Shown here: one piece after another, positions 20,001 to 36,908 of the stretch
How the letters are laid out: the number at the start of each line of letters is the position of its first letter
How positions within the stretch are numbered: the first letter of the stretch is position 1
Assembly: GCA_947643415.1 (NCBI GenBank)
Contig: CANRWA010000036.1
Span: 1 to 38,821, forward strand
Direction of reading: 5' to 3'
Length of the DNA stretch: 38,821 nt
From: an uncultured Clostridia bacterium
GTDB lineage: Bacteria > Bacillota > Clostridia > Lachnospirales > Lachnospiraceae
Notes under the pieces: model-generated
What the model was told of the DNA's origin: nothing
Database searches by the model: none
Seen by the model: the letters and a program-made list of their open reading frames with translations, nothing else
Made by a program: the position numbers and the translations under genes

Positions 20001-21418
20001 ATGAGATTGCGGTATTTTATATTAAACTATAATGGCAGAAAAAATTTGAAAGTCAGTTTGAAAGATAAAGCTACAGGAATCTACACTTTGCATCTGAAAA
20101 AACTGTTTGCCATCCCAGAACCAGTGGGAATTAGTGGACAGGATAAATATACTCTGACCTGGGACTCAGTGAGAAATGCAGAGGAGTATCCTGTCTATGA
20201 GGATGGAAAGAAGATCCAGGAGATCATTGTGAGGGGAACATCTTGCGAATATATATACCAATGAGACCAGAGGGAAGATCCTTGGTTTCACTGTGACAGC
20301 GAGAGAGAATACTGTCCTCACAGGAGAACCTTCCCGAATGATCTATAATACAGACAATCAGTCAGAGTGGGTGTACACCACACCAATGAAAGCAAAGAGA
20401 AAAAACAGTTCCGTGATCACATGGGATAAAAAGATCAATGTGCTGGGTGGGGAAAATGCCACAGGGACATTAAAAAGCTTTGCTGTGTATGATACCGAGA
20501 AGAAGACATGGGAGCCATTGCCAGATTATCCTGGTACTGATACAGGAATCTGCAAGGCAGCTATGACATCTTTTAATAATGAGATCCTGGTGATCGGAGG
20601 CCAGACGGGCACAAATGCAGGAGCCTGGACAAAGGCTGGGGAAACGAACAGATTAGAGAGCTATTAGTTTAAAACAGATACATGGGAGAGCACCATATTG
20701 CCAGGTACCAGCACCATTATTGATGCAGCCAGCATGGATAACCGGGTATTTGTGCTGAAAGAGGATGGGAGGAAGATGTACTGGCAGGAATATCTCCCAG
20801 AAGAAAGACGCAGGCACCCCATGTCCTTCAGCGGCATCTGACAAATATCAGGCGTCTGCCATTATCAGCGGTAAGATCTACATGGTAAAAGAGGAAGGGA
20901 TAAAAGAAATCCTTGTCTATGACGCATATACGGATGAGTGGAGCCGGATCTCTGATATGAATCTGGTCAAACAAGGATCAGCGCTTGCGGCCTGTGGCAA
21001 TGACTTGTACAGTATTGGTGGAGAGATGGCAGGTTTTGGGGTGCTGGATGTGGTAAAGAAGTATACTGTGAAAGAGCAGACTACAACAAAGGATATGCTG
21101 ATAAAGAAAGGTGAAGCCTATGAATTGCAGATCATAGTAGGAAACTTGAAAAAAGGTCAGGCAAAGACCGTTACAATGAGTGTCGACCCAGAAGAACTGC
21201 AGATCCAGAATGTATCCTCCTTTGAAGCGGACCAGATGCTAAGGGAAGGAGTGGATGGTGTCACTCTCTTAAAATACCAGCCAGACAAAGGTGTGGTGGT
21301 GATGAAGCTGGAGGGGAGTCTGGAAAGGGGGCAGTCCTATGAGACATATCAGTCCATCCCTGTGGAGGTCAAAGCGGATGGGAAGACAAAGGTAGAGATC
21401 ACGTTGATGGAGAAATAG
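20001..21418 (+). pseudogene. Kelch-repeat / FN3 protein, degenerate
   Basis: Three frames together read as one eroded extracellular protein. It begins with a fibronectin-III-like stretch (GISGQDKYTLTWDSVRNAEEYPVYEDGKKI). Kelch motifs follow (INVLGGENATGTLKSFAVYDTEKKTWEPL, ILVIGGQT, IYMVKEEGIKEILVYDAYTDEWSRI, LYSIGGEM), and last a C-terminal beta domain (TKDMLIKKGEAYELQIIVG). Disruptions are a frameshift near 20255, a TAG at 20665-20667 (LESY-stop-FKTDTW) and another frameshift near 20803. The N-terminal signal region is missing, so the 5' end is also lost. Such propeller proteins bind ligands or partners at the cell surface. It precedes the patatin operon and, further on, the RHS gene, and may once have been part of the RHS locus. 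Confidence 0.7.
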
Positions 21419-21450
21419 GGAAAATACATATTTTAGGAGGTTATGATATA

Positions 21451-22335
21451 GTGATGAAAAATGCGGCTTTGGTTTTGGAGGGAGGATCGTTAAGATGCTT
21501 ATATACTGCAGGCGTGCTTGATCTTTTTATTGAGAAAGAAATCGATTTTTCGTGTATTATTGGAGTTTCAGCAGGAGCACTAACTGCAGCAAATTACATA
21601 ACAGGGCAAAAAAGAAGAACTGCCCAAATAAATATTTTGAAATCTAATGATTCTAATTATTATGGAGTCAAGCAACTTATTTTAAAAAGAAGTGCATTTA
21701 ATTTTGATTATTTATTTAATGACCCAATAAATAAATTGTATCCGTATGATATAAAAAAATTCATGAAACTAAAACAAAAATTTTATATTGCTGCAACCGA
21801 TTGCATTACTGGCAAGGTTAAGTATTTTAATGCAAAAAACAATTATACAGAAATGACAGAATTTCTAAAAGCCTCTAGTAGTTTGCCTTTAATTTCACCA
21901 ACAGTAAACATAAAGGGTAAGGAATATTTGGATGGAGGAATTGTAGCACCTATAGGAATAGAAAAAGCATTACAGGAACAATATGATAAAGTTGTAGTTG
22001 TTTTAACCAGAAGTTGTGGATTTATTAAGAAACCAACATCTTTATTAATTAAAATACTTTTTAGAATATTTTATAATAAATATCCGGCCTTACTTCGTTC
22101 ATTAGATGAGATGCCAAAGATATATAATGATATTGTAAAAAAGGTAGATGAGATGGAGAAAATGGGAAAAATTTTTGTGATCCGGCCTAAAATCATGCCT
22201 AAAATAAGGAGTGTTGAAAAAGATGCAAGAAAATTATCCCAATTATATTTCCAGGGCCTGAATGATGCCGAACAAAGTTTAAACAGTATGATAGAATATT
22301 TGAAAGTTAATGAAAATACAAAAAATAATCATTGA
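21451..22335 (+). CDS. Patatin-like phospholipase
   Basis: This 294-residue protein has the patatin fold: oxyanion segment LEGGSLRCLYTAGVLD (E10-D24), nucleophile elbow GVSAGAL with S40, and the dyad aspartate D161 in LDGGI. The oxyanion loop is GGSLR instead of the usual GGGxRG, a variation common in YchK/RssA-like members. Patatins hydrolyse acyl esters of lipids, and several anti-phage systems (for example CapV in CBASS) use one to destroy membranes. No signal peptide is present, so it acts inside the cell. Start is GTG 21451 or ATG 21454 after AGGAGG. The next gene starts nine bases after its stop, so the two form an operon. The block is far more AT-rich than the flanking genes, suggesting transfer. 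Confidence 0.88.
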   Translation: MMKNAALVLEGGSLRCLYTAGVLDLFIEKEIDFSCIIGVSAGALTAANYITGQKRRTAQINILKSNDSNYYGVKQLILKRSAFNFDYLFNDPINKLYPYDIKKFMKLKQKFYIAATDCITGKVKYFNAKNNYTEMTEFLKASSSLPLISPTVNIKGKEYLDGGIVAPIGIEKALQEQYDKVVVVLTRSCGFIKKPTSLLIKILFRIFYNKYPALLRSLDEMPKIYNDIVKKVDEMEKMGKIFVIRPKIMPKIRSVEKDARKLSQLYFQGLNDAEQSLNSMIEYLKVNENTKNNH

Positions 22336-22344
22336 GGGTATAGT

Positions 22345-24555
22345 ATGAAAAAAATAAAACAAGTTATTCGATCACGTTTTTTGGATCAACCAATGAATAT
22401 AGCATTATTATTTACATGTGTAATAATAGTTTTCATACAATTATATTTTATTTTAGATACATGGGTAGAGAACTGTATAGAAAAAATGTATATAATCATT
22501 AATAATAACCAATTATTATTGGCAGTTATTGCAGGGATTATTCCTTTATTGCCTAATATTTGGCTTTTAATAGTAAAAAAAATAGAGGAAAAGAAAGAAC
22601 CGGAAAAGGATGACCAGAATATTTATGTGCCTGATAAAACAGAGGTTTTTCCGGGAGCAATAACGCATGATATGATCAAGAATGAAGAAGTCATTCTTAT
22701 TTCTGACCGAACATTTGAAAATATTAATAAAAAAGTACCTATGATATTAGACCGCCAAAAACAATGTGATGACATAATTAAATATATAGAAAAGCTTAAG
22801 GAAGACGGCAAGAAAAAAAACTTAAATTGTTTGTTTTTGACAGGAACAAGTGGTGCGGGTAAGTCTATTTTATTAAAAGAATTTTTAATGCATAAACTAA
22901 ATGGACCAAACGATGATACGTTAAGTGAAAAAAAAGTAGATAAGGAGTGCCTGTATTTTAATAATTACGATGTAGCCTGTGACTTAATTTATAATGAAAT
23001 TATTTCACAAAAAGCTAATATTATAATTATGGATCAATTTGAGACAAGTATTGATTATATGGAAATTTATAGTTATATAAAAAAATTAGTAAATAATGTG
23101 GATCATACCCTAATTTTCATCTTTTCTTTCCCTCAAGATGTTTTTGATCAAATATCACTTAATATAATGAAATATGTCGTAAATACAGTTGATCCTGATC
23201 AAAGTCTGTTAAGCTTTGACGCAACAACATACACACATTTTCTTGGATATGATGAACATGATATTGCACAATTAAAAATATTAATAAATACATTTTTGAA
23301 GGTTGGCATGGAGTTAGTTGACGAATGCCTAGAGTATTCTCTTGATACATTTTTAAATAATGGAAGCTTTATTCCAGTTTTAAATTTAGGGAGATACCCA
23401 TCGTCATTGGTATTTTTGTGTTCTATTTTAACGAGAATTAAAGCTGGAAAGTCTCCTCTTGTTGAGTTTTCTATTGTTTCATATATTTATGAACTATATA
23501 AAGAGGAAATTGATTATAATATTGATAAATACATAGATGATCTTAATAAAATTTTTGAATTATATCTTGAGCATTGGACAAAAAAATTTCCCAATTCTGA
23601 GACAGGGAAAATTATTTTACAATTGATTTCTGATGGTCGGAAATATACCGAAGATGACTTGAAGTGTGTTACCTTTGAACCTAGTGAATGTTTCATGTTA
23701 CCTCAAAAGGATGATAAAAGTAAACATTCGTCGTTATTTAGCATCCTTGCAGTTTTAAAACAAAATAAGTTTATTCGGGTTAAAGAAAATTATTTTGGGT
23801 TCAAATTTGGTGTTTTTGCCGTTCATGATTTTGTTGCTTTAAAGATGAGTGAATATTGCTTTGAAACGCTAGACAATACATTACGACAAAATGTCGATTA
23901 TTATAAAAGAAAAATGGTGCAGACAAACCATGGATATTCTGTACAGGCAGAAAGTAAAACAAAATCTATTATATTAAGAAGATATGAAAGTTTTTATACA
24001 AAGCAAAATCAGTTGTTTATTAATATACTTGTATATATTTTGATGGTGAGCAGTATCTTAGTTAGTTGCGTTAAAGGAAACCAATATAATGATTATACGG
24101 ATAATATATTTTACATTTTTATAGGAACGGGCTGCTTTTTTTCAACATACTATTTGTATAACGTAGTTATGCAGTTTTTCAGAATGTTAAAAAAACGATA
24201 CTATTATCCTCTAATTATATGTGGAACAATACTTATTATTCTTTGTTATGTGCTGCCCGATTATTGGGGGGTGTTCTCGGGCATTGAAATTGTAATATTA
24301 GGAATGTCTTTGTACAGTGCAAGAAAGGGGACAGTGGGTCTGGCAGTAGATTTCTTTCGTGATAAAGGAATATTTTATGTTGTTTTGGGATTGGTTGTAA
24401 TTGGATTTGGTATAGAGTATGCTTATATTAGTGATTCTTTGATGTTAAAATATACACTTGATATATTCTTTATTATATATGTAGCAGCGAGTAATTTTAC
24501 ACATATTAAATACAGTTACATTATGAATAAAATAGGAATGGGTAATACGGTTTAG
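22345..24555 (+). CDS. Membrane-embedded P-loop (STAND-like) NTPase
   Basis: The 736-residue protein begins with a transmembrane hairpin (about 18-40 and 56-77). A cytosolic NTPase domain has Walker A GTSGAGKS (167-174) and a Walker-B-like NIIIMDQFET (D230, with glutamine following). Then comes a helical winged region (about 330-540, including SIVSYIYELYKEEID and GVFAVHDFVALKMSEYC), and about six further transmembrane helices (560-720). The 'RQKQCDDIIKYIEKL' lead-in before the P-loop recalls STAND NTPases such as NACHT and AVAST proteins, but I cannot match it to a named family. It is tightly coupled to the patatin gene upstream. Inference: a membrane sensor that oligomerises on a trigger and activates the lipase. 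KAP-type NTPases, which carry membrane helices inside the NTPase, are an alternative relative. Confidence 0.75.
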   Translation: MKKIKQVIRSRFLDQPMNIALLFTCVIIVFIQLYFILDTWVENCIEKMYIIINNNQLLLAVIAGIIPLLPNIWLLIVKKIEEKKEPEKDDQNIYVPDKTEVFPGAITHDMIKNEEVILISDRTFENINKKVPMILDRQKQCDDIIKYIEKLKEDGKKKNLNCLFLTGTSGAGKSILLKEFLMHKLNGPNDDTLSEKKVDKECLYFNNYDVACDLIYNEIISQKANIIIMDQFETSIDYMEIYSYIKKLVNNVDHTLIFIFSFPQDVFDQISLNIMKYVVNTVDPDQSLLSFDATTYTHFLGYDEHDIAQLKILINTFLKVGMELVDECLEYSLDTFLNNGSFIPVLNLGRYPSSLVFLCSILTRIKAGKSPLVEFSIVSYIYELYKEEIDYNIDKYIDDLNKIFELYLEHWTKKFPNSETGKIILQLISDGRKYTEDDLKCVTFEPSECFMLPQKDDKSKHSSLFSILAVLKQNKFIRVKENYFGFKFGVFAVHDFVALKMSEYCFETLDNTLRQNVDYYKRKMVQTNHGYSVQAESKTKSIILRRYESFYTKQNQLFINILVYILMVSSILVSCVKGNQYNDYTDNIFYIFIGTGCFFSTYYLYNVVMQFFRMLKKRYYYPLIICGTILIILCYVLPDYWGVFSGIEIVILGMSLYSARKGTVGLAVDFFRDKGIFYVVLGLVVIGFGIEYAYISDSLMLKYTLDIFFIIYVAASNFTHIKYSYIMNKIGMGNTV

Positions 24556-24584
24556 GAGATAATAACTGAGAATTTAATTGTGCA

Positions 24585-24615
24585 GTTTCTTGTTCAGTAA
24601 ATTATCACAAGAAAC
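24585..24615. promoter_or_regulatory. 9-bp inverted repeat upstream of RHS gene
   Basis: GTTTCTTGT (24585-24593) and ACAAGAAAC (24607-24615) form a perfect hairpin with a 13-base loop in the 143-base gap between the NTPase and the RHS gene. No T-run follows, so it could be an operator or a weak terminator of the patatin operon. Confidence 0.4.
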
Positions 24616-24698
24616 ATAAAAAGTTTACCAATATTCTGTCGATGTATCAGTAATACTATGCTGTATCACTGATTGCGAAGAAAAGGGGTTCAGAATCT

Positions 24699-27530
24699 AT
24701 GAAAAAGATAAAACAGATATTATTTGGGGCGGTTATCGCTATTATGATAATTGAAATTACTGTATTTACTGGCAATACTATCTGCCATGCAGCAGATGAT
24801 AACCCCACCGTGGGCGAGAACCTCACCATGGGTGAGGTGTATGATACAGCATTGGAATTCGCCTATGGGGACACCTTCCGCAGTGTGTACGAAAACCGGC
24901 TTGCTGGTTCTCCACTGGAGACAGAGGGAGCAGATGGGGTGGACACAGCTACCGGACATCTGATGCTTTCCCGCACCGATCTCTCCCTGGATGGCACAGG
25001 AGGAATGGATTTTGAACTGAACCGCTATTATGACAGCAATGAGGCGAACCTGGGGCATGCCATGGTGGAGCATGTGGATGAACTGAAAAGGGATACTATA
25101 TGGGTGGAATACACAGCAGAGGATGGGGCGAAACGGAAACTCGTTGTTAATGCTGCCCTGCTGTCGAATCATAAAGATGCCTTGAAAAACCTTATAGGCA
25201 GTTCTTATAAAAAAGGAGAAGTACAGCATAAGGATGTGATACGGCCGGAAGGGGGAACCCAGAGAACCAAGATTGTCAGCAATGAAAGACATAACGTGTA
25301 TGGTGTGGCAAGCGGCTGGCGGTATGATTTCCCATGGATCGAGACAGTGATACTGACAGAAGATGAGGGTTGGGGGAAGATTCCTGCCTATCTCCATTTC
25401 GGCAGTGCCGGGGTGGCAAGTATAAGTTATAAAGCAGATAATGACTCAAAAACTTACCAGATTACCGGGTTGGAGGATTATGATTACCAGGATATTCGGT
25501 TAGAGGATTTTGAACAAACCGTAAATGGTGTTGCCTGCCGATACCTTCTTCGGGACAAGACAGGGCTTCGCACTTATTTTAATGAAGATGGTGTTATTGT
25601 CTTACAGAAAGATGCCCATAATAACACTATTTCTTATACCTATACAGATGGAATCTATTTCAGCAAGATCACGGATTCTGTAGGAAGAGAGATTTTGTTT
25701 CATTATGATGATGAGGAAGGGGAAAAGGTTTTGGCCTCTGTCACTGTGCAGGGAATGGAAACAGAAGGCGGTGTGGCAAAGCAGACAGTCACATATGAAA
25801 CAGACAGAAAATCCTATACACCACTGCATGGTGACCGGCTTCATGGGTTCATCCTTACTTCAGCAGTTGTGGATGGGCGAAAAGAAAAATATGGCTATAA
25901 AACGGTGGAGCGCCTGGTGAGCACAGCAGGGGAGGGAGCAGCATCCCAGCGTGTGTCAACGAACCAGAGTTATCTGCTCACAAAGATCACGGCAGATGGG
26001 TGTGAGCAGTATTATGAATACCGTGGCTGTTCTTTGCGTGGGACAAAGCAGTATGGGACCGGACAGAAAAGAGATGTGGTGACTGGTCAGTTCTATGTGA
26101 CAAGGGAATATCAGAAAGACCTGAAAACCGGAAAAAAGTCCGAAGGGATCAAGTACGATTATTTCCAGAGACAGGATGATACACTTATTTCCTTTGCAGA
26201 TTTTGAGGAAGGAAAAAATGAAGTATGGCAGTATGGGAAGAGCGGACTGAAAACGGCTGCCCTTGTAAGTACCTTTAACCCAAACAAGTACAAGACAAAT
26301 AAAAAGTATTATGATTATAAATATAAAAAATCTAAGATTAACGCAGGTACGCTGCGGCTGAAAAAAGACACAAAGAAAAATGCCAGCCTGTACATCTATA
26401 ATGAGAATAAACAACTGGCAGAACAGGTTGAATATGGTCAGGAAAAACAGGAGACCCTTTATCGTTATGACAAAGACGGAAAAGGCTCCCTTGTGGTGCA
26501 GGAGACCAGTAAATCCTATGGGAAAAAAGGTAGTGGCGCTATGGTCTCAAATCAGGGCTATACCTATGATGTATACCGTAATCTCCTGACCAGTAAAAGC
26601 CCCAGGGCATACCTTAAGAAAAACAAAGGAAAAGAGCACTTGTTTACAACAACATATAACTACCATGCCACTGACAAAGGATATCCGGCGGGGGATGCCG
26701 CTGCAGCCCTGTCCACCCTTGAATCACAAGAAAATTATTCCTCTGCTGGTACAAAAGTGAGGATGACAGGAGTTATTGCATCAAACGGCATGGATATTAT
26801 CAGCATATCTGGGCAGAAAAGTGTGGGTGGCGGGGCATATCAAACCATTTCTAAAACTGATTTTTCATATGATGCACATGGAAATGAGATACAGGGAAAA
26901 GTATATCCTGCCTATAGCAAAGATGGGGAAGCGGAGATGATTCAGAACGATTATACTTATAATGAGCTGGGACAGCAGACAAAAAGGACTGTAGCCATTT
27001 CCTCTGCAAAGCGTCCTGCAGACAGCCGCACTTACACGGAAGAAGAGATAACGTATGATTCTTTTGGCAATGAACTGACCTATACAGATGCTAATGGGTT
27101 AGTGTCAAAAACAACCTATGATCCGAAGACAGGTGAGGAGACAGAGACCATTAATGCTGTGGGTACAGAGTACGAATCTGCTGATAAGGAATATCAGTCT
27201 TCGGATGGGCTGAAAACTATGACAGTCGATAACTATGGACGTGTCACCATTACCATACAGGACGCCTTTGGGAATACTCTTATCAGTAAAGATGAGGCAG
27301 CCGGTACTTGGACGGAAAGTGTCTATGAGTATGGCAGCACAGAGGGTGACGGAGATACAGAAGATGATGAGGAAAAAGAGGAAGTAACCCGGTTGGTCGA
27401 AGAAAGGACCTATGTATTTGAGCCGGATGAAAAGCGTTTTATCATCAATGAAGATGGGGAGACTGTGCCGAACTATTACATCACAGGAAAGGGAAAAGAA
27501 ATCCTCAGGCGGCAGCAGATATTTTTATGA
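24699..27530 (+). CDS. RHS/YD-repeat polymorphic toxin, N-terminal part
   Basis: This 943-residue ORF starts with a signal peptide (MKKIKQILFGAVIAIMIIEI...CHA) and a DUF6531-like entry domain (VDTATGHLMLSRTDLSLDGTG, FELNRYYDSN). A long series of YD/RHS repeats follows (ISYTYTDGIYFSKITDSVGREILFHYDDEEG and many more). RHS repeats form a hollow beta shell that encloses a C-terminal toxin. Near 27505 the frame shifts: this ORF ends 8-10 codons later at 27530, while the same protein continues in the frame of the next entry (SSGGSRYFYDALGNQTG). The whole would be about 2,090 residues. The lesion lies in an A/G-rich run (GGGAAAAGAAA), so a sequencing error is possible. The ATG has AAGGGG at eleven bases. 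Confidence 0.85.
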   Translation: MKKIKQILFGAVIAIMIIEITVFTGNTICHAADDNPTVGENLTMGEVYDTALEFAYGDTFRSVYENRLAGSPLETEGADGVDTATGHLMLSRTDLSLDGTGGMDFELNRYYDSNEANLGHAMVEHVDELKRDTIWVEYTAEDGAKRKLVVNAALLSNHKDALKNLIGSSYKKGEVQHKDVIRPEGGTQRTKIVSNERHNVYGVASGWRYDFPWIETVILTEDEGWGKIPAYLHFGSAGVASISYKADNDSKTYQITGLEDYDYQDIRLEDFEQTVNGVACRYLLRDKTGLRTYFNEDGVIVLQKDAHNNTISYTYTDGIYFSKITDSVGREILFHYDDEEGEKVLASVTVQGMETEGGVAKQTVTYETDRKSYTPLHGDRLHGFILTSAVVDGRKEKYGYKTVERLVSTAGEGAASQRVSTNQSYLLTKITADGCEQYYEYRGCSLRGTKQYGTGQKRDVVTGQFYVTREYQKDLKTGKKSEGIKYDYFQRQDDTLISFADFEEGKNEVWQYGKSGLKTAALVSTFNPNKYKTNKKYYDYKYKKSKINAGTLRLKKDTKKNASLYIYNENKQLAEQVEYGQEKQETLYRYDKDGKGSLVVQETSKSYGKKGSGAMVSNQGYTYDVYRNLLTSKSPRAYLKKNKGKEHLFTTTYNYHATDKGYPAGDAAAALSTLESQENYSSAGTKVRMTGVIASNGMDIISISGQKSVGGGAYQTISKTDFSYDAHGNEIQGKVYPAYSKDGEAEMIQNDYTYNELGQQTKRTVAISSAKRPADSRTYTEEEITYDSFGNELTYTDANGLVSKTTYDPKTGEETETINAVGTEYESADKEYQSSDGLKTMTVDNYGRVTITIQDAFGNTLISKDEAAGTWTESVYEYGSTEGDGDTEDDEEKEEVTRLVEERTYVFEPDEKRFIINEDGETVPNYYITGKGKEILRRQQIFL

Positions 27531-30500
27531 TGCCCTGGGCAATCAGACCGGTAGTGCTTCCTTCTGCAATGGGGAGCTGGATGCTGCCCACTGCAGTGGC
27601 TGGAGTTTTTCAAAAAGTGAATCAGAAGTGACGGGAGAAGGTGATGAAACACGAACTATATCCACCAGTTACCAGAAGGAACTGAATCCCTCTGCATACC
27701 AGCCAGACGCAGATCCTGAAAACTACTATGACCAGTTTAATGATGCCGCATTAAGTGAAAGTATCTCTGAAACAGTGATGGATGCAGAGGGGAATACCCT
27801 CTCTGCTACCAGTATTATCATCCGCGGTGGGAACAGACAGGAGACGGTTACCACATATGAGACGGATGATTTTGGGAGAACTGTGAATGAAGACACAGTA
27901 ACAAGAAAATACCAGGATGGGAAGTGGCTTCCTTTTTATGAGACACAGACCTTCTTCACTTATGATGATAATGGCAACGTGAGCCAGAGTGAGACAAGAA
28001 GCCGGAAGGAGGGCGAGACAGAATGGCAGTCCAAGACGGTAAAGACAGATTATGATGAGCAGGGGCAGGTAACGAAAGAATATACGCCAAGAGGAATGAA
28101 AGAAAATGTTGCTGCAAAGTATGAATATGATATTATGGGCAGGATGGTCCAGTCTGAGATACCACAGGAAAAGAAGGATGGCAGTATTAAATACCAGAAG
28201 AATATGATGGTATATGACAATACAGGAAATGTAACAGAAAAAAGTGGGCAGATTGATGGTGACAGAACAGCAAAAACCGAGTATACTTATGATAAGCATG
28301 GTAACCTTGTCATGGTGAAGAGCTGTCTGGAAGACGGCAAAGGACCTAACGGTTCTTCGGCACAATATGTCCAGTATGTCTATGATACTGAGGGGAACAA
28401 GGTACGCCAGTTTACTGGAATGACAGCACCATTGACACTGGAGGTATCTGAATTGTCTGCTGGTGCTGGGAAAGAGGGAGATACCTTTTCCTACGCTGGA
28501 AAGAAATATCAGATCCACATCAGTGGGAAAAAGAAGGGTGACACCATCCATGAGACAAAGTATGAGTACAATGGGAAAAATCAGCTAACCGCTTATTTTG
28601 ATCCAGAGGGTAGAAAAGAGACCTACACTTATGATGTGAATGGGAATCTGACCAAAACAATAGATAAAAACGGCAACACCATGAAAAATACCTATGACTA
28701 TCAGAACCGACTGACAGAGACGGTGGCAGCCCATGCACAGAAAGGGAAGGAGACGAAGCATACCTATACATATAATGTATATGGGGAAGTGGCAACACAG
28801 GACGGTACTGCCTTTAGTCATGCAGACGTGTCAGGACAGGTAACCAAAGAGATTACAAAGCTGACAAAGAATAAGGCCATAGAGAAGAGCTATACATATG
28901 ACAGTGCAGACAATAAATCTGCCTTTGGGGTAAAAGTGGGCGGTGATACAAAACTGTCCCTGAGGTATACGTATGATGGGGAGTCCAGGCTCACCTCTGT
29001 TACTGATGAGAAAGGGAACGAGGTTGTGGGATACTCCTATGATACGGATGGGAACCTTTCCGGGAGAACTGTGCCAGGGAATGGATTGGCCACCACATAT
29101 AACTATGATTACCAGAACCATCTGACGGGGATGAAAAATCAGACAGGCAGTGTTGGGGTAATTTCAGAGTACACGTCAAAATATCTTATCAATGGACAGA
29201 AGTCAGAAGAAAGTTCTGGCATTGTTGATAAAAAGGGGAAAAAATCTACAAAGACGGTCGCTTACACCTACGACCTAATGGGGCGGATTACAAAGGAAAC
29301 GAAAACAGGTAGCCAGGATATTTCCTATACTTATGACAGTAATAACAACCGTAAGGAAATGGCTGTGGGAAATCAGGTAACTGCTTATAAATACAACAAA
29401 AATGACGAACTGCTCCGCACCGATACCCTGGATAAGGGGACGGAAGAGGATTCTGTTGTGATATACAAAAATGATAAGAATGGAAACCAGCTTGCCACAG
29501 TCAACCGTTATGAAATTCCAGAGGAAAAAAAAGACAAGGTATATATTGATATTGATGTGACGTTGGGAGATAACCGTCTGAATGATAATGTGGTGAATCA
29601 TTTCAATGCCCTGGACCAGCTTACAAGTACATTGACGAAAAACTATAAAGTAAGCTTCACTTATGACGCAGAGGGTCTGCGTACCAGCAAGACAGTAAAC
29701 GGGGAAAAGACAGTCTTTGTCTGGGATGGCGACCAGGTGGTGATGGAATTGTCTGGGGGCGGAAAAGTACAGAAGAGATATGTCAGGGGAAATGATCTTG
29801 TGTTTGTGGATAAAGGGGAGGGGTCAGAGAAACAGTACTATGTGGCAGATCCACATGGAAACGTGGTACAGCTCACAGATGAAAATGGGAAAGTTATAAA
29901 AAACTATGAATATGATTCCTTTGGGAATGAAGTGAAGCCGGATAAAAAGGATGATAATCCATTCCGCTACTGTGGGGAATACTATGATAAGGAGACAGGT
30001 GAAGTGTATCTCCGGGCAAGATATTACCAGCCGGGGACAGGACGATTTCTGACAAGAGATACCTATACCGGGGAGAGTGATGATCCGGAGAGCCTGCACC
30101 TGTATACATATTGCGGGAATGATGGGGTGAATGTGTGGGATCCAAGTGGGCATTGGGGGAAGTTCAGCCCTACAGAAAATTCAGATGTATCAAATTACCA
30201 ATTTGTACACCAGCAGCTTACAGTAGAAGCACTAATGCAGTTGAGTTTCTCTAATAGTAATTTGGCCTTTACAAGTTTAGATTTCTGTAGGGGAATGGGG
30301 TTATCAAAAAAAGAACTGGGATATATTCTGGATGGATCAATCCTGCCGGATTATCTTAAAAAGAAACCGAATAAAAATAATGAGTGGAACACAAGGGGAA
30401 AAATAATTGAAAATATAAGAACAAAAAAGAAGATCCTGGGTATGAATTTGAAGGATGATAATACATTTCATGGAAAGAACAAGAAAAAACTGGAAAATTT

Positions 30501-30963
30501 GATGGAGAATGCGGATGAAACGTTTAAAAAGAAAGGATCAAAAAGGAAGAAGTTAATCCTGCTTGGCTGTGTACTTCATTCCATACAGGATTATCAGGCA
30601 CATAGCTTTAAGGGGGATTTGGAGAGCGTTAAGAAAAATTTTAAGAAGGGTAATTATGTTTACCTGCCGGAGGTGCTGATATATAACAAAGACTGGTTAA
30701 AGTATTATCTCTCAATACAAGGAGAAAGACAAGAAAAAAAGATAGATGTGAAGGGTTCTGAAGATCTTGAAGATGATAGAGAGAGGGAACATCATAATTA
30801 CAAAGATAATCCATACATGGATTTTGTTAAATGCAAAAATACGGAATTGTGGATGTGGGATAAGGTCAGTTCCCCATCCAGTAATGGGAGATATATCCAG
30901 GCAAGAAAAGATTCTGTTGGTTATTTAAACAAGGCGCTAAAACAGATTAGCCGTTGGGGGTAG
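27412..30963 (+). CDS. RHS toxin, C-terminal part with variable toxin domain
   Basis: The frame is open from 27412, but real homology starts near 27505. It carries the rest of the YD shell and the RHS core end (GEYYDKETGEVYLRARYYQPGTGRFLTRD ... YTYCGNDGVNVWDPSGH), the normal boundary before a toxin. The last 270 or so residues (30154-30960) are the variable tip: mostly helical and lysine-rich, with LLGCVLHSIQDYQAHSFKG at about 30565-30620. The HSIQDxxAHS pattern resembles the metal-binding motif of zinc-dependent phospholipase C and HET-C-like proteins, so a lipid-directed hydrolase is my best guess. It is followed five bases later by a lipoprotein gene, the expected place for an immunity protein. 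The exact toxin family was not identified. Confidence 0.8.
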   Translation: MYLSRMKSVLSSMKMGRLCRTITSQEREKKSSGGSRYFYDALGNQTGSASFCNGELDAAHCSGWSFSKSESEVTGEGDETRTISTSYQKELNPSAYQPDADPENYYDQFNDAALSESISETVMDAEGNTLSATSIIIRGGNRQETVTTYETDDFGRTVNEDTVTRKYQDGKWLPFYETQTFFTYDDNGNVSQSETRSRKEGETEWQSKTVKTDYDEQGQVTKEYTPRGMKENVAAKYEYDIMGRMVQSEIPQEKKDGSIKYQKNMMVYDNTGNVTEKSGQIDGDRTAKTEYTYDKHGNLVMVKSCLEDGKGPNGSSAQYVQYVYDTEGNKVRQFTGMTAPLTLEVSELSAGAGKEGDTFSYAGKKYQIHISGKKKGDTIHETKYEYNGKNQLTAYFDPEGRKETYTYDVNGNLTKTIDKNGNTMKNTYDYQNRLTETVAAHAQKGKETKHTYTYNVYGEVATQDGTAFSHADVSGQVTKEITKLTKNKAIEKSYTYDSADNKSAFGVKVGGDTKLSLRYTYDGESRLTSVTDEKGNEVVGYSYDTDGNLSGRTVPGNGLATTYNYDYQNHLTGMKNQTGSVGVISEYTSKYLINGQKSEESSGIVDKKGKKSTKTVAYTYDLMGRITKETKTGSQDISYTYDSNNNRKEMAVGNQVTAYKYNKNDELLRTDTLDKGTEEDSVVIYKNDKNGNQLATVNRYEIPEEKKDKVYIDIDVTLGDNRLNDNVVNHFNALDQLTSTLTKNYKVSFTYDAEGLRTSKTVNGEKTVFVWDGDQVVMELSGGGKVQKRYVRGNDLVFVDKGEGSEKQYYVADPHGNVVQLTDENGKVIKNYEYDSFGNEVKPDKKDDNPFRYCGEYYDKETGEVYLRARYYQPGTGRFLTRDTYTGESDDPESLHLYTYCGNDGVNVWDPSGHWGKFSPTENSDVSNYQFVHQQLTVEALMQLSFSNSNLAFTSLDFCRGMGLSKKELGYILDGSILPDYLKKKPNKNNEWNTRGKIIENIRTKKKILGMNLKDDNTFHGKNKKKLENLMENADETFKKKGSKRKKLILLGCVLHSIQDYQAHSFKGDLESVKKNFKKGNYVYLPEVLIYNKDWLKYYLSIQGERQEKKIDVKGSEDLEDDREREHHNYKDNPYMDFVKCKNTELWMWDKVSSPSSNGRYIQARKDSVGYLNKALKQISRWG

Positions 30964-31854
30964 GATCATGAAAAAAATAGTATATGTATTTTTGGTAGGT
31001 TTCTGCATTTTATTAGTCTCCTGTACTTCGGGGGAACAGCAAAGGAAGACGGCAGAAAACCAGGAAACCGGACAGAAGGAGACAGAAGACAAATGCAGGA
31101 AAGAGGAAAAGAATGAAGAAAAATATGTGGAAGTGGTAGGTGGAACAGGGGTGAGCCGCCAACTGAAGCTGGGAGTAGTGGATGGGAAGGATGTAGGATG
31201 TAATTTTGAAGGTCTTGTTTTTGCTTCGGATTATTCACAGGTTGTGGACGGGCATTATTATTACATGCGTACAGACGGTATGGGTAACTATACCGTTTAC
31301 CGGGATAAAGGGGAAGAAGCAGTCCGTTTTATTATAAGTGATGAACATTATATAAAATATTTTGTTAAATATGGGGATGTATTCTATGCTTTTGTGAGGG
31401 AAGATGACTTTAGTTCTGGCTCTGGTGACTTGGATAATACCCTGGTAAGCATTAATGATAAAACAGGATATGTAACAAAGATAAAGGATATGACAGTGGA
31501 AGTTGCCAGTAAAGAAATCTGGCGGATGGGAAGAGCAGTGTTTTATAAGGATTCTTTCTATTTTGAAGATTATTCCGATTACTACTCTGAAGATTATTCC
31601 TATGACTATTCCCCTCCCCACTACGGTGTGCTTGAAGTTGGACAGGGAAGGCTGGCATGTCTCCATCTGGATGGAAACATGGAAAAGGAACGTTTTCCCC
31701 TGGCTTCCAGAATGGAAAGCATGAAAGAGAAACCTATGCTGACATTTATAGATGGGAAGATATATTATGGGGAGCAGCAGGACAGTGACACTGTTCTCTT
31801 ATGATCTGGGGAGCGGCGTGGAAAAAGAAGTGCTCTGTTATGAGCGGCCAGATT
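30890..31854. repeat. 965-bp direct repeat, unit 1
   Basis: This appears identical to 32434-33398 at an offset of 1544 bases. It covers the last 24 codons of the RHS toxin tip and the first two thirds of the immunity lipoprotein, including its frameshift. The complete identity, even at silent sites, implies a recent duplication or active gene conversion. Confidence 0.9.
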
Positions 31855-32507: not shown

Positions 32508-33398
32508 GATCATGAAAAAAATAGTATATGTATTTTTGGTAGGTTTCTGCATTTTATTAGTCTCCTGTACTTCGGGGGAACAGCAAAGGAAGACGGCAGA
32601 AAACCAGGAAACCGGACAGAAGGAGACAGAAGACAAATGCAGGAAAGAGGAAAAGAATGAAGAAAAATATGTGGAAGTGGTAGGTGGAACAGGGGTGAGC
32701 CGCCAACTGAAGCTGGGAGTAGTGGATGGGAAGGATGTAGGATGTAATTTTGAAGGTCTTGTTTTTGCTTCGGATTATTCACAGGTTGTGGACGGGCATT
32801 ATTATTACATGCGTACAGACGGTATGGGTAACTATACCGTTTACCGGGATAAAGGGGAAGAAGCAGTCCGTTTTATTATAAGTGATGAACATTATATAAA
32901 ATATTTTGTTAAATATGGGGATGTATTCTATGCTTTTGTGAGGGAAGATGACTTTAGTTCTGGCTCTGGTGACTTGGATAATACCCTGGTAAGCATTAAT
33001 GATAAAACAGGATATGTAACAAAGATAAAGGATATGACAGTGGAAGTTGCCAGTAAAGAAATCTGGCGGATGGGAAGAGCAGTGTTTTATAAGGATTCTT
33101 TCTATTTTGAAGATTATTCCGATTACTACTCTGAAGATTATTCCTATGACTATTCCCCTCCCCACTACGGTGTGCTTGAAGTTGGACAGGGAAGGCTGGC
33201 ATGTCTCCATCTGGATGGAAACATGGAAAAGGAACGTTTTCCCCTGGCTTCCAGAATGGAAAGCATGAAAGAGAAACCTATGCTGACATTTATAGATGGG
33301 AAGATATATTATGGGGAGCAGCAGGACAGTGACACTGTTCTCTTATGATCTGGGGAGCGGCGTGGAAAAAGAAGTGCTCTGTTATGAGCGGCCAGATT
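32434..33398. repeat. 965-bp direct repeat, unit 2
   Basis: Second unit of the repeat at 30890-31854. The right end of the identity coincides with the left end of the IS200-type element at 33399, so the element inserted into, and cut off, this copy. Confidence 0.9.
32512..33398 (+). pseudogene. Putative immunity lipoprotein, copy 2 (truncated)
   Basis: The 278-residue first frame (32512-33348) is identical to copy 1, including the LLVSC lipobox, the propeller-like blades and the same premature end. The second-frame part continues only to SYDLGSGVEKEVLCYERPD and is then broken at 33398 by the IS200-type left end. A truncated, membrane-anchored 278-residue protein may still be made. It follows the orphan tip by five bases, repeating the toxin-immunity order of the main locus. 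Confidence 0.75.
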
Positions 33399-34090: not shown

Positions 34091-34205
34091 ATGTATTCGC
34101 TCCTTCCATAAGTGAGTTTTGTCTGGTACAATTTGATTATATTTTATGGTTGTCTTAATGTCGTTCTTTTATAGTTGCAAAAAGTTGCAAGAAAGGAGGG
34201 CTTAT

Positions 34206-36908
34206 ATGCTGACATTTGCGAAGTTTGCAAGTGAGTTACTTTATGCCACTAAACTAAATAATGAAGATTTAGTTAACATTCTTTTAGGTTGTGTTTATGA
34301 ACCACTAGACTTAAAAGATAAGAATGGAAATCCGTATTATGCTGGAAAAGGTGAATGCAGTTATCTGTTAAAAGGGAAAAGAGATGTAAAACTTGAAATT
34401 CAGCGAGGTACTACTAGAAAAAAAGTGATTGATAATGCAGGAGCTTATTTTAAGGAACGGCTTGTTTCGAGAATTATTCCTTCGCTTCTTGAGGACTTTT
34501 TGGAGAATATGAGAAAGACAATTGCATACGATTTTTCTATTTCTGAAGCCAAAAAGAATGAATTGTTATCAAAGGCAAGTAAACAAGAATTGGCAACTTT
34601 TATAGAAAATGTGTGTTTTTATGTAATTGGAAGACCTAATACAGTTCAAGATGAGATTATGTGTATGAATAACCTTCCAGAACAGAACAGGTACTTTTGT
34701 GGACGAGTAGAAGTATTGCAAGATATTGATTCACTCTTAGAGAAAAAAAAGAAGGATACGGTTAGCATTTGTCAAACTATTTCGGGTCTTGGTGGAATTG
34801 GGAAAACGCAACTTTCAATAGAGTATGCATATAAATATCATTATAGATATAAAACTTGTATTTGGTTTATAGATGCAGAAAGCGGATCTTCTGTTTATAA
34901 TTGCTTTTGTGATTTTGCACAACATTTTAATCTCTTTTTGCCATTAAATTACAATTCTAAAGATTTACAATGTGCAATCAAGACATGGCTATCGGAAAAC
35001 CGTAGTTGGTTACTAATATTTGATAATCTTGAGATTATGGACACAATAATTCCTTACTTACCTGACAGGATAAAAGGACGAATCCTTATAACTACAAGAA
35101 ACACTCGTATTGATTATGGAATATCGCTTTTTCTTGATGTATTTAGTTTAGAGGAAGCAAATTTTTTTATGAAAAAAAGATTATCAAAAAATAATGAAGC
35201 AAAAATGGAATACTATAAGTATGAGGACTTTACTGAAAAATCGTCTGTATTGATAAAACGTTTAGGGTATTTACCTCTTGCATTGGAACAAGCAGCGGCA
35301 TATATAAAAGAAGTCCAGTGTTCTATTTCTGATTATATAGAGTTATTGAGACAATCAAGTGTTGATGTATTTTCGGACAAATATGCCTCACCGGAATATT
35401 ATGAAAGTATTGTTACGTCAACGTGGAGCATTTCTTTTGCGGCACTTGAAGAAAGTTCCCGGCAATTATTGAATCTTTGTGCTTATATGGGAGCTGATAA
35501 TATTCCTATAAAATTTTTTGTGGATATGAGAAAAGAACTTCCAGCTCCGTTGACAAATGATTTGGCGAAGAAGTTAACATTAAATCGAGTTGTTACAGGT
35601 CTTCGGACCTACTCTTTGACTAGAGGAACTGCCGAATATATCCACATTCACAGACTTGTACAAGAGGTAATAAGGAAGAATCATGAGATTGAAGGAAAAA
35701 CTGATTATGATAAAAATGGATGGCTTAAATTAAACTTTAGCATGTTGGAGAGATATCTTCCGGTTTCATGTGAGGAACCGGATAGTACATCACGATTTGT
35801 ACAAATAGCTATTCATGCGGAATCTATTGCAGAAAAATATTCTATATTTGATGGACAAGAAAGTATAAAATTGGCAAATTTGTACGATAAAATAGGTCAA
35901 TGTTATGATGATTGTGGGATTTTCGATAGTGCATTTAGGAATTATTATAATTCGCTCCAAATTAAAGAAAAATGTTTGGGAAAAACACACCCTGATACTG
36001 CAATACAATATGATAATATTGGCTTGTCGTATACCAAAACTGGTAAATATACGAAAGCAATACTATTGCATAATAAGGCTATTAATATTTTAGAACTTAG
36101 CCTTGGTAAAAAAAATCTTGATACAGCAACTGCTTATAATAACCTGGGGTTGGCGTTGGTGAGAAATGGAAATTATGATTTGGGCATTGAATGGTATCAA
36201 AAATGTCTTGATGTTGAGTTGGAAATACTTGGAGATGAAGATATTGAAATTGCAGCAGATTATAATAATATAGGTGAGGCGTATTTTCAGAAGGGAGAGG
36301 AGGATAAGGCTTTAGAATATTTAATAAAGGCTCTTAAGATTAAAGAAAAGAGGATTGGCTGCATGAATTCAAATACAGCTATTACATACAATAATCTTGG
36401 GAGTGTATATTGGAAAATTAAGCAATATGATGAAGCTATAAAATATACTGAAAAATCTCTTAATATTTACAAAAAAACATATGGTGAAAAACATCCAAAT
36501 GTTGCTTTGGAATTAGGAAATTTAGCAAGTATATTGGCTGATAATGGCGATAAAGATAAAGCAAGAGAGTATTACTTTGAAGCAATTGAAATTGGGAAAA
36601 ATAGCTTAGGTTTATCACATCCACAAACAGCTAAAACGATTGATGGACTGGGGACAACATATCTTGATGAAGAAGAATTTGAACAAGCTTTACCATATTT
36701 TCTTTTAGCATATAAGCTGTTTAAGGGCACTCTTGACCAGAAGCATAATGATGTAGTACGAGTTTATAAGCATTTGCAGACTGTATATAAAAAAGAGAGT
36801 GTTTTTGAGTCGTTTGATGATTGGCTGGGGCTACAATTGGAAAAGTCAATTGATGGACTAGAAGTAAAAATACAAAAAAATAAATTTTATACAGATACTA
36901 TGCTATGA
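34206..36908 (+). CDS. NLR-like NB-ARC/TPR protein
   Basis: From ATG 34206 (AGGAGG seven to ten bases upstream) the product has 900 residues. Residues 1-145 are a helical domain (MLTFAKFASELLYATKLNNEDL, YYAGKGECSYLLKGKRDV) that recurs in front of other modules in Clostridia; its function is unknown to me. The NB-ARC NTPase shows Walker A GLGGIGKT (194-201), Walker B LLIFDN (D273), ILITTRN (sensor, about 293) and LGYLPLALEQAA (353). An HIHRLVQ motif near 480 stands in place of MHD. Residues about 555-880 are seven or so 42-residue tetratricopeptide repeats (for example TAIQYDNIGLSYTKTGKYTKAI, TATAYNNLGLALVRNGNYDLGI). This is the STAND layout of bacterial immune sensors, with TPRs as ligand binders. 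AT-rich, likely acquired. Confidence 0.88.
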   Translation: MLTFAKFASELLYATKLNNEDLVNILLGCVYEPLDLKDKNGNPYYAGKGECSYLLKGKRDVKLEIQRGTTRKKVIDNAGAYFKERLVSRIIPSLLEDFLENMRKTIAYDFSISEAKKNELLSKASKQELATFIENVCFYVIGRPNTVQDEIMCMNNLPEQNRYFCGRVEVLQDIDSLLEKKKKDTVSICQTISGLGGIGKTQLSIEYAYKYHYRYKTCIWFIDAESGSSVYNCFCDFAQHFNLFLPLNYNSKDLQCAIKTWLSENRSWLLIFDNLEIMDTIIPYLPDRIKGRILITTRNTRIDYGISLFLDVFSLEEANFFMKKRLSKNNEAKMEYYKYEDFTEKSSVLIKRLGYLPLALEQAAAYIKEVQCSISDYIELLRQSSVDVFSDKYASPEYYESIVTSTWSISFAALEESSRQLLNLCAYMGADNIPIKFFVDMRKELPAPLTNDLAKKLTLNRVVTGLRTYSLTRGTAEYIHIHRLVQEVIRKNHEIEGKTDYDKNGWLKLNFSMLERYLPVSCEEPDSTSRFVQIAIHAESIAEKYSIFDGQESIKLANLYDKIGQCYDDCGIFDSAFRNYYNSLQIKEKCLGKTHPDTAIQYDNIGLSYTKTGKYTKAILLHNKAINILELSLGKKNLDTATAYNNLGLALVRNGNYDLGIEWYQKCLDVELEILGDEDIEIAADYNNIGEAYFQKGEEDKALEYLIKALKIKEKRIGCMNSNTAITYNNLGSVYWKIKQYDEAIKYTEKSLNIYKKTYGEKHPNVALELGNLASILADNGDKDKAREYYFEAIEIGKNSLGLSHPQTAKTIDGLGTTYLDEEEFEQALPYFLLAYKLFKGTLDQKHNDVVRVYKHLQTVYKKESVFESFDDWLGLQLEKSIDGLEVKIQKNKFYTDTML

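Follow-up and report, generated by a model that had tools for sequence, protein, structure and literature searches.

The DNA analysed here, called the window, is a stretch of 38,821 nucleotides that forms an entire contig of the genome of an uncultured gut Clostridia bacterium of the family Lachnospiraceae (4.6 Mb, 230 contigs). Its forward strand carries two closely spaced genes, for a patatin-like phospholipase and for a membrane P-loop NTPase of likely STAND type, which are described as the predicted effector and the predicted sensor or switch of one module. The patatin gene (21451..22335) encodes 294 amino acids (aa) and starts with GTG at 21451, behind an AGGAGG read in the sequence at 21435..21440 (forward strand) as the likely ribosome-binding site. 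An in-frame alternative, ATG at 21454, agrees better with the start of the related patatin of genome G255 (see below). The protein matches PF01734 at E 4.2e-20 (73.2 bits, Pfam cut-off 27.7) and, in its C-terminal part, DUF6363 (PF19890) at E 1.5e-15. Besides the profile match it has the GXSXG serine (S40), the DGG aspartate (D161), both counted from the GTG, and the oxyanion GG of patatin-like phospholipases. PADLOC returned generic phospholipase-effector models (E 1.1e-5 and 5.4e-5), and a sequence search of solved structures found one sequence, PlpD (E 5.5e-8). The stop codon occupies 22333-22335 and the ATG of the NTPase gene lies at 22345, a gap of nine bases. The earlier note on this DNA, made from the sequence alone, had described a patatin with an S40/D161 dyad at 21451 and a 736-aa NTPase beginning nine bases past it; the open reading frames (ORFs), the residues and the Pfam match bear this out.

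The NTPase gene (22345..24555, forward strand) encodes 736 aa and was assigned from its ORF, an aligned P-loop and DQFE motif, and a profile match to a group of TIR-linked relatives. A predicted N-terminal transmembrane hairpin spans residues 19-77 (22399..22575, forward strand; hydropathy windows 19-37 and 59-77). A predicted C-terminal membrane module runs from about residue 558 to the end (24016..24552, forward strand), where hydropathy finds three helices and where a S-x-Y/F-Y-I/L-Y-N stretch and an HI motif are common to the four closest family members. Between about residues 77 and 558 no hydropathy helix was found, and by this measure the P-loop domain is without a membrane segment. Hydropathy gives four C-terminal helices for the relative in G255, five each for those in G106, MT837689, G230 and G087, and six for that in G021. 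The hairpin claimed by the earlier note stands, while the roughly six C-terminal helices that it also claimed are three by hydropathy and about six as drawn in a low-confidence AlphaFold2 model, itself unusable (alignment of three sequences, mean pLDDT 40.0, pTM 0.28). Walker A, a DQFE-type Walker B and a winged-helix H-D/E motif are the hallmarks of STAND proteins, and all are present in the alignment of seven members, one of which lacks the P-loop half; the P-loop G172-K173 and the DQFE Walker B are kept in all six members with a complete P-loop region. The Pfam cut-off is reached in relatives, for nSTAND1 by those at loci L079 and L080 and for nSTAND3 by that at L003. Through these relatives the window NTPase is likely a STAND protein, as had been proposed, and no repeat sensor was detected in it, in agreement with the proposal that TPR and LRR sensors are absent. 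For the window NTPase PADLOC returned SspF alone (E 0.013) and the sequence search of solved structures nothing; PHROGs gave nothing better than E 0.014.

The pair recurs on two further unrelated backbones. A search of 299 genomes of the family with the NTPase gave matches at E ≤ 0.001 in five, of which three were accepted (the window genome, G255 and G106); the matches in G042 and G163 were weak and local. In G255, which belongs to another genus of the same family, the patatin gene precedes the NTPase gene in the window's order, 173 bases apart, and identity to the window proteins is 59% for the patatin and 27-30% for the NTPase. The order is reversed in MT837689, a faecal record, in which the C-terminal 367 residues of an NTPase run into a patatin (48% identical to that of the window) in overlapping frames. 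A patatin profile and an NTPase profile select exactly the pair genes at both loci, which lie on contigs of 6.5 kb (L007, from G255) and 6.4 kb (L055, MT837689). These two pairs are a positive outcome of a check that the earlier note had named beforehand, the occurrence of tight pairs on unrelated backbones. The catalytic serine and aspartate are invariant in an alignment of the three paired patatins. In a tree of 23 patatins, comprising the paired three and 20 other family matches at E ≤ 1e-60, a single branch separates the paired sequences from all the rest, with support 93/93 and recovery in 92% of 200 bootstrap trees. The 20 unpaired patatins are 36-45% identical to that of the window and many adjoin UvrD-like helicases or transporters (by eye); beside them, within about 1.5 kb on each side, no ORF of at least 60 aa matches the NTPase profile. 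Divergence is faster in the NTPase (27% identity between window and G255, vs 59% for the patatin), as would be expected of a sensor that has to follow a changing target, although membrane proteins can also drift.

MT837689 is named Bacteriophage sp.; its other ORFs appear by eye to be phosphoglucomutase- and mannose-6-phosphate isomerase-like, and for this reason the record probably derives from the chromosome of a gut bacterium. Overlapping ORFs of 169 and 81 aa that follow the G255 pair downstream (L007 1531-2278, reverse strand) show a toxin-antitoxin-like layout and have no Pfam or PADLOC match. The ORF downstream of this pair had been taken as a candidate ADP-ribosyltransferase, which was dropped for want of a Pfam, PADLOC or NCBIfam match.

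More distant NTPases came from a search with a C-terminal-half profile, built on the proteins of G000 (the window genome), G106 and G255, which matched 14 of 397 family genomes at E ≤ 0.01. Six were accepted: the three genomes in the profile, hence below 1e-130 by construction, and G021 (8.7e-18), G230 (1.3e-7) and G087 (4.5e-7). The proteins of the latter three have the same layout, with a hairpin at the N-terminus, a P-loop domain, and five or six helices at the C-terminus. Profile-profile comparison of the two groups aligned 593 columns with a probability of 99.6%, supporting full-length common descent; this is not a blind test, since each profile was built from three sequences and the profile of the first group had served to find the second. 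By these sequences the NTPase family is rare, fast-diverging and of STAND type, and its presence is sporadic (one of eight genomes in the genus of G106). Next to the seven NTPases stand a patatin (three), a TIR-Sel1 protein (two) or neither (two). The TIR-Sel1 gene lies directly upstream of the NTPase gene, 18 bases off in G021 and overlapping it in G230, and its product matches TIR_2 at E 3.1e-10 and 1.7e-12, respectively. The next gene downstream in G230 is RyR-like (E 6.8e-6; 26.7 bits, below the cut-off of 27.4), and G021 encodes a RyR-like protein about 5 kb downstream (E 0.00024, below the Pfam cut-off), near a CARF nuclease-like protein (PADLOC 1.6e-30). A switch of the same type seems, in these distant relatives, to be coupled to a TIR protein. 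This exchange of effectors is the strongest evidence for reading the NTPase as a switch whose outputs can be exchanged. The G106 copy is part of what is likely a conjugative element, which also encodes a TraG-type ATPase and a resolvase; a helicase matching Mokosh MkoA (1.6e-50) is encoded some 1.1 kb from the NTPase gene. As a separate observation, the TIR-Sel1 protein, the membrane STAND NTPase and the RyR-like protein are encoded close together at L079 (7309-12274) and L078 (1534-11797), possibly as a Thoeris-like system.

In the window the pair occupies a low-GC islet (21427..24676) delimited by blastn ends, junction alignments and guanine-plus-cytosine (GC) content, a stretch without detected homology to six related loci. 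The GC content is 0.296 for the patatin gene and 0.283 for the NTPase gene, against a mean of 0.435 (standard deviation 0.048) for 186 ORFs, each 200 aa or longer, in 300 kb of the same genome (20 stretches, the first 15 kb of contigs C1-C20); a single one of the 186 lies below each pair gene. To the left, three ORFs (20001..21418, forward strand; GC 0.449) are what is left of a Kelch-repeat gene, and to the right is a polymorphic-toxin-type RHS gene in two overlapping ORFs (24699..30963, forward strand; GC 0.445 in the first), which lies outside the system; both were identified from ORFs, Pfam and the related loci. DNA matching this 9.9-kb region is present in 20 of 39 genomes of the genus, the window's included, and among the matches listed in this DNA-level search (at most seven candidates scored per genome) none outside the window spans the pair. 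Ten matching places were compared (L123-L132). Six of them (L123-L128; L126 in the window's own genome) carry a Kelch gene, a gene of 223-251 aa unrelated to the pair, and an RHS gene consecutively; L123 and L124 have the same sequence, so that five loci are distinct. L129 and L132 have the Kelch gene and one resembling the middle gene (221 and 212 aa, respectively) and end before any RHS gene, and L130 and L131 end within or just past the RHS gene. The Kelch frames measure 1,008-1,061 aa in seven of eight related loci and 853 aa in the eighth (L126), where a contig end cuts the frame. Homology to L126 stops at window position 21411 and resumes at 24677, and homology to L123 stops at 21426 and resumes at 24840; by these breaks a segment no longer than 3,250 bases (21427-24676) occupies the place of the middle gene. 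No convincing repeats flank the islet, and the single terminator-like site in it, which falls within the NTPase gene, does not exceed chance expectation. The AT-richness of the pair and its position between a Kelch pseudogene and a polymorphic-toxin gene were already in the earlier note, and its further claim of transfer as a unit is consistent with the low GC and the homology gap at the Kelch/RHS slot, which point to a two-gene unit foreign to the site. The row of Kelch gene (over 1,000 aa where uncut), 223-251-aa gene and RHS gene is a repeated cassette in several genomes of the genus, with more than one copy in G1020; one of the 223-251-aa proteins was searched against Pfam and gave no match.

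Other searches define how far the family was followed. Weak or P-loop-only matches were set aside mostly by length and E-value, and some may be other STAND proteins. They comprise 22 non-window genomes among 23 of 392 with matches (best E 3.0e-6), matches in six of 291 genomes, and eight of the 14 genomes in the C-terminal search (E 6.3e-5 to 0.0099), two of whose loci were inspected (G267 and G284). An order-level scan of 168 genomes with a seven-member profile gave six at E ≤ 1e-6; the five outside the window (E 3.0e-8 to 6.7e-7) cover 49-108 profile positions at the P-loop. Of two scans of genome contigs, the first found no relative and the second only two loci already known. A phage collection gave no relative for the window NTPase or that of L079, and one record, MT837689, for the L004 query. 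Two of six further patatin records from that collection and two of 55 plasmid patatins were checked, and the NTPase profile matches no ORF in any of the four. The family genomes are a sample, many of them fragmented, in which three pairs and seven NTPases are known. The NTPase and its relatives matched no named system in PADLOC 2023 (best E 0.00028) and reached no NCBIfam cut-off. The word patatin is absent, by term search, from the main text of PMC7159879 and PMC8195603. In a literature search, which left most subscription journals uncovered and so leaves absence unproven, no description of a bacterial patatin beside a membrane STAND NTPase was recognised in the portions of the sources available.

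On balance it is rather likely that the two genes make up a small immune module, acquired by horizontal movement, in which a membrane-anchored STAND alarm has a lipase as its output and which defends by damaging the membrane of its own cell. The cassette probably serves as a cell-suicide or anti-phage alarm not described before, because distant NTPase relatives adjoin a different immune enzyme. The reading draws on the pairing on three backbones (one of them reversed), the boundaries and composition of the islet, the conserved catalytic and P-loop residues, the STAND-type relatives and the effector swap. In the proposed mechanism the NTPase would be held in the cytoplasmic membrane by its N-terminal hairpin and C-terminal helices, its STAND domain facing the cytosol. 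Phage entry, a phage membrane protein, lost membrane integrity or another event at or close to the membrane would act as the trigger and cause the NTPase to bind or exchange nucleotide and to oligomerise. The activated NTPase would then recruit or relieve the soluble patatin, which would hydrolyse membrane phospholipids and so stop the infected cell.

Several observations weigh against this immune reading. Three pairs are known in all, and in one the NTPase is cut by a contig end. The window NTPase falls below every Pfam cut-off (best TniB, E 0.00035), its link to STAND proteins comes through relatives, and the arginine after the Walker B strand, found in four of six members complete there, is absent from the window and G255 proteins. 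The NTPases of G106 and G087 have no patatin or TIR gene in the 19-20 kb around them (loci L008 and L080, searched with the patatin profile and the TIR-Sel1 sequence), and the G087 copy lies, by eye, amid ordinary chromosomal genes. Defence-type genes were clear around only two members, that in G106, which is without a patatin, and the TIR-linked one in G021, the contigs of the two other pairs being 6.4-6.5 kb long. No NTPase relative was found among IMG/VR viral contigs in two NTPase scans, nor in one scan with the patatins, and none among plasmids with three NTPase queries.

It is unlikely, but the best placed of the alternatives, that the pair has nothing to do with phage and serves in membrane stress or lipid turnover, the NTPase sensing the state of the membrane and the patatin remodelling phospholipids for the benefit of the cell. 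The NTPase is membrane-embedded by hydropathy, the patatin relatives at 36-45% identity are ordinary stand-alone genes in the family, the two plasmid patatin relatives inspected adjoin metabolic genes, and the setting of the G087 NTPase would suit such a role. A homeostatic module should, however, be kept more uniformly than this rare and sporadic one, and the foreign composition, the replaceable slot, the replacement of the patatin by TIR genes in relatives and the fast divergence of the NTPase all speak against it. Less probable again is a toxin-antitoxin-like or element-maintenance pair, whose NTPase would restrain the lipase until loss of the islet or an incoming element set it free. Two closely spaced or overlapping genes, apparently mobile and interchangeable in order, would fit this, as would the patatin-less NTPase in the likely conjugative element of G106; yet a membrane NTPase of 736 aa would be unusual as an antitoxin, and the existence of patatin-less NTPases, with no lone member of the paired clade among the 23 patatins, fits a regulator serving other effectors. 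That the pair is an accessory of the RHS locus, acting for example in release or immunity, is improbable: it does sit in the slot of the usual middle gene of the six related loci, but no RHS match was found at the two other pairs (within the 6.5 kb of L007 and 6.4 kb of L055) or at four other NTPase loci, and its composition is sharply unlike both flanks. Chance neighbourhood of two unrelated genes, for which it may be said that patatins are common (1-11 candidates per genome listed at a first look) and that two of seven NTPases have neither effector adjacent, was already disfavoured and is very improbable given three pairs on different backbones, from one patatin clade and in both gene orders.

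Further features of the window lie beyond the islet. The C-terminal part of the RHS ORF at 27412-30963 has a weak match to zinc-dependent phospholipase C (PF00882, E 1.4e-5, below cut-off). The RHS gene is followed by two ORFs of 278 aa each (30968-31804 and 32512-33348), neither of which matches Pfam; they may be immunity genes that arose by duplication. At 34146-36908 (forward strand), some 10 kb from the pair, the window encodes a 920-aa NB-ARC and TPR protein, an NLR-like STAND protein that matches the NCBIfam FxSxx-COOH system TPR protein (304.7 bits, cut-off 300).

The layout of the pair was unfamiliar to the earlier note, and scans of PADLOC, Pfam, NCBIfam and PHROGs as well as the literature search matched it to no named system. 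In CBASS the patatin CapV is the membrane-damaging effector. The window protein is likewise a patatin-like phospholipase and a proposed membrane-damaging effector; unlike in CBASS, no cyclase (CD-NTase) gene stands beside it. The genes at its sides are Kelch and RHS, and no cyclase was found among the 11 window ORFs scanned with Pfam, in agreement with the earlier note. The CBASS lipase model NF041079 scored 24.7 bits against a cut-off of 200, so that the patatin is not of the CapV type by this measure. KAP NTPases have transmembrane segments inserted in the P-loop domain, as stated in the title of a 2004 paper. The comparison with them suggested beforehand fails: helices lie at 19-77 and from 558, with none between by hydropathy, and no KAP profile is listed among the Pfam matches. 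Relatives that reach the nSTAND1 or nSTAND3 cut-off share the P-loop and DQFE Walker B with the window NTPase, which differs in its score below cut-off, its membrane helices at both ends and the lack of a detected repeat sensor. Thoeris and other TIR systems are approached by the distant NTPase relatives that adjoin TIR and RyR-like genes, whereas the window pair has a patatin and no TIR. We know of no Thoeris system with a membrane STAND NTPase such as that of the TIR-linked relatives. Phage RyR-domain proteins are described, in the accessible part of PMC13232231, as cleaving or sequestering cyclic ADP-ribose (cADPR) signals. Avs5 and bNACHT25 are STAND- or NACHT-type switches used against phage, according to the available portions of PMC12931631 and PMC12169576. 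The window NTPase resembles them as a switch of this general kind, but has a separately encoded effector, a membrane module and no detected repeat sensor, and no Avs or NACHT model was among the PADLOC matches of the NTPase and its relatives.

A likeness in working exists to the fungal protein PLP-1 (patatin, NB-ARC, TPR), whose cell death needs patatin activity and the ATP-binding motif and whose recognised partner is SEC-9, a t-SNARE of vesicle transport, as far as the part of PMC12881547 at hand describes it. In both a patatin output would stand under a STAND-type switch. PLP-1 is one fused polypeptide with NB-ARC and TPR, whereas the window has two separate genes, a different type of STAND protein and an added membrane module, and the likeness is one of working, not of membership. 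Most known NLR-like proteins of bacteria are soluble and use repeats to recognise phage proteins. Tentatively, and as a proposal that we hold a little below even, the NTPases may form a new class of membrane-embedded STAND receptors with PLP-1-like logic and separate, exchangeable outputs (a patatin, or a TIR protein with a RyR-like membrane protein that perhaps reads a cADPR-type signal), watching the membrane and not a soluble phage protein. If so, there would be a second way of placing a STAND alarm, in the membrane, with outputs swapped as neighbouring genes, and membrane sensing of phage attack by bacteria would become testable. A bacterial patatin would then be activated without a cyclic nucleotide, as in the fungal PLP-1.

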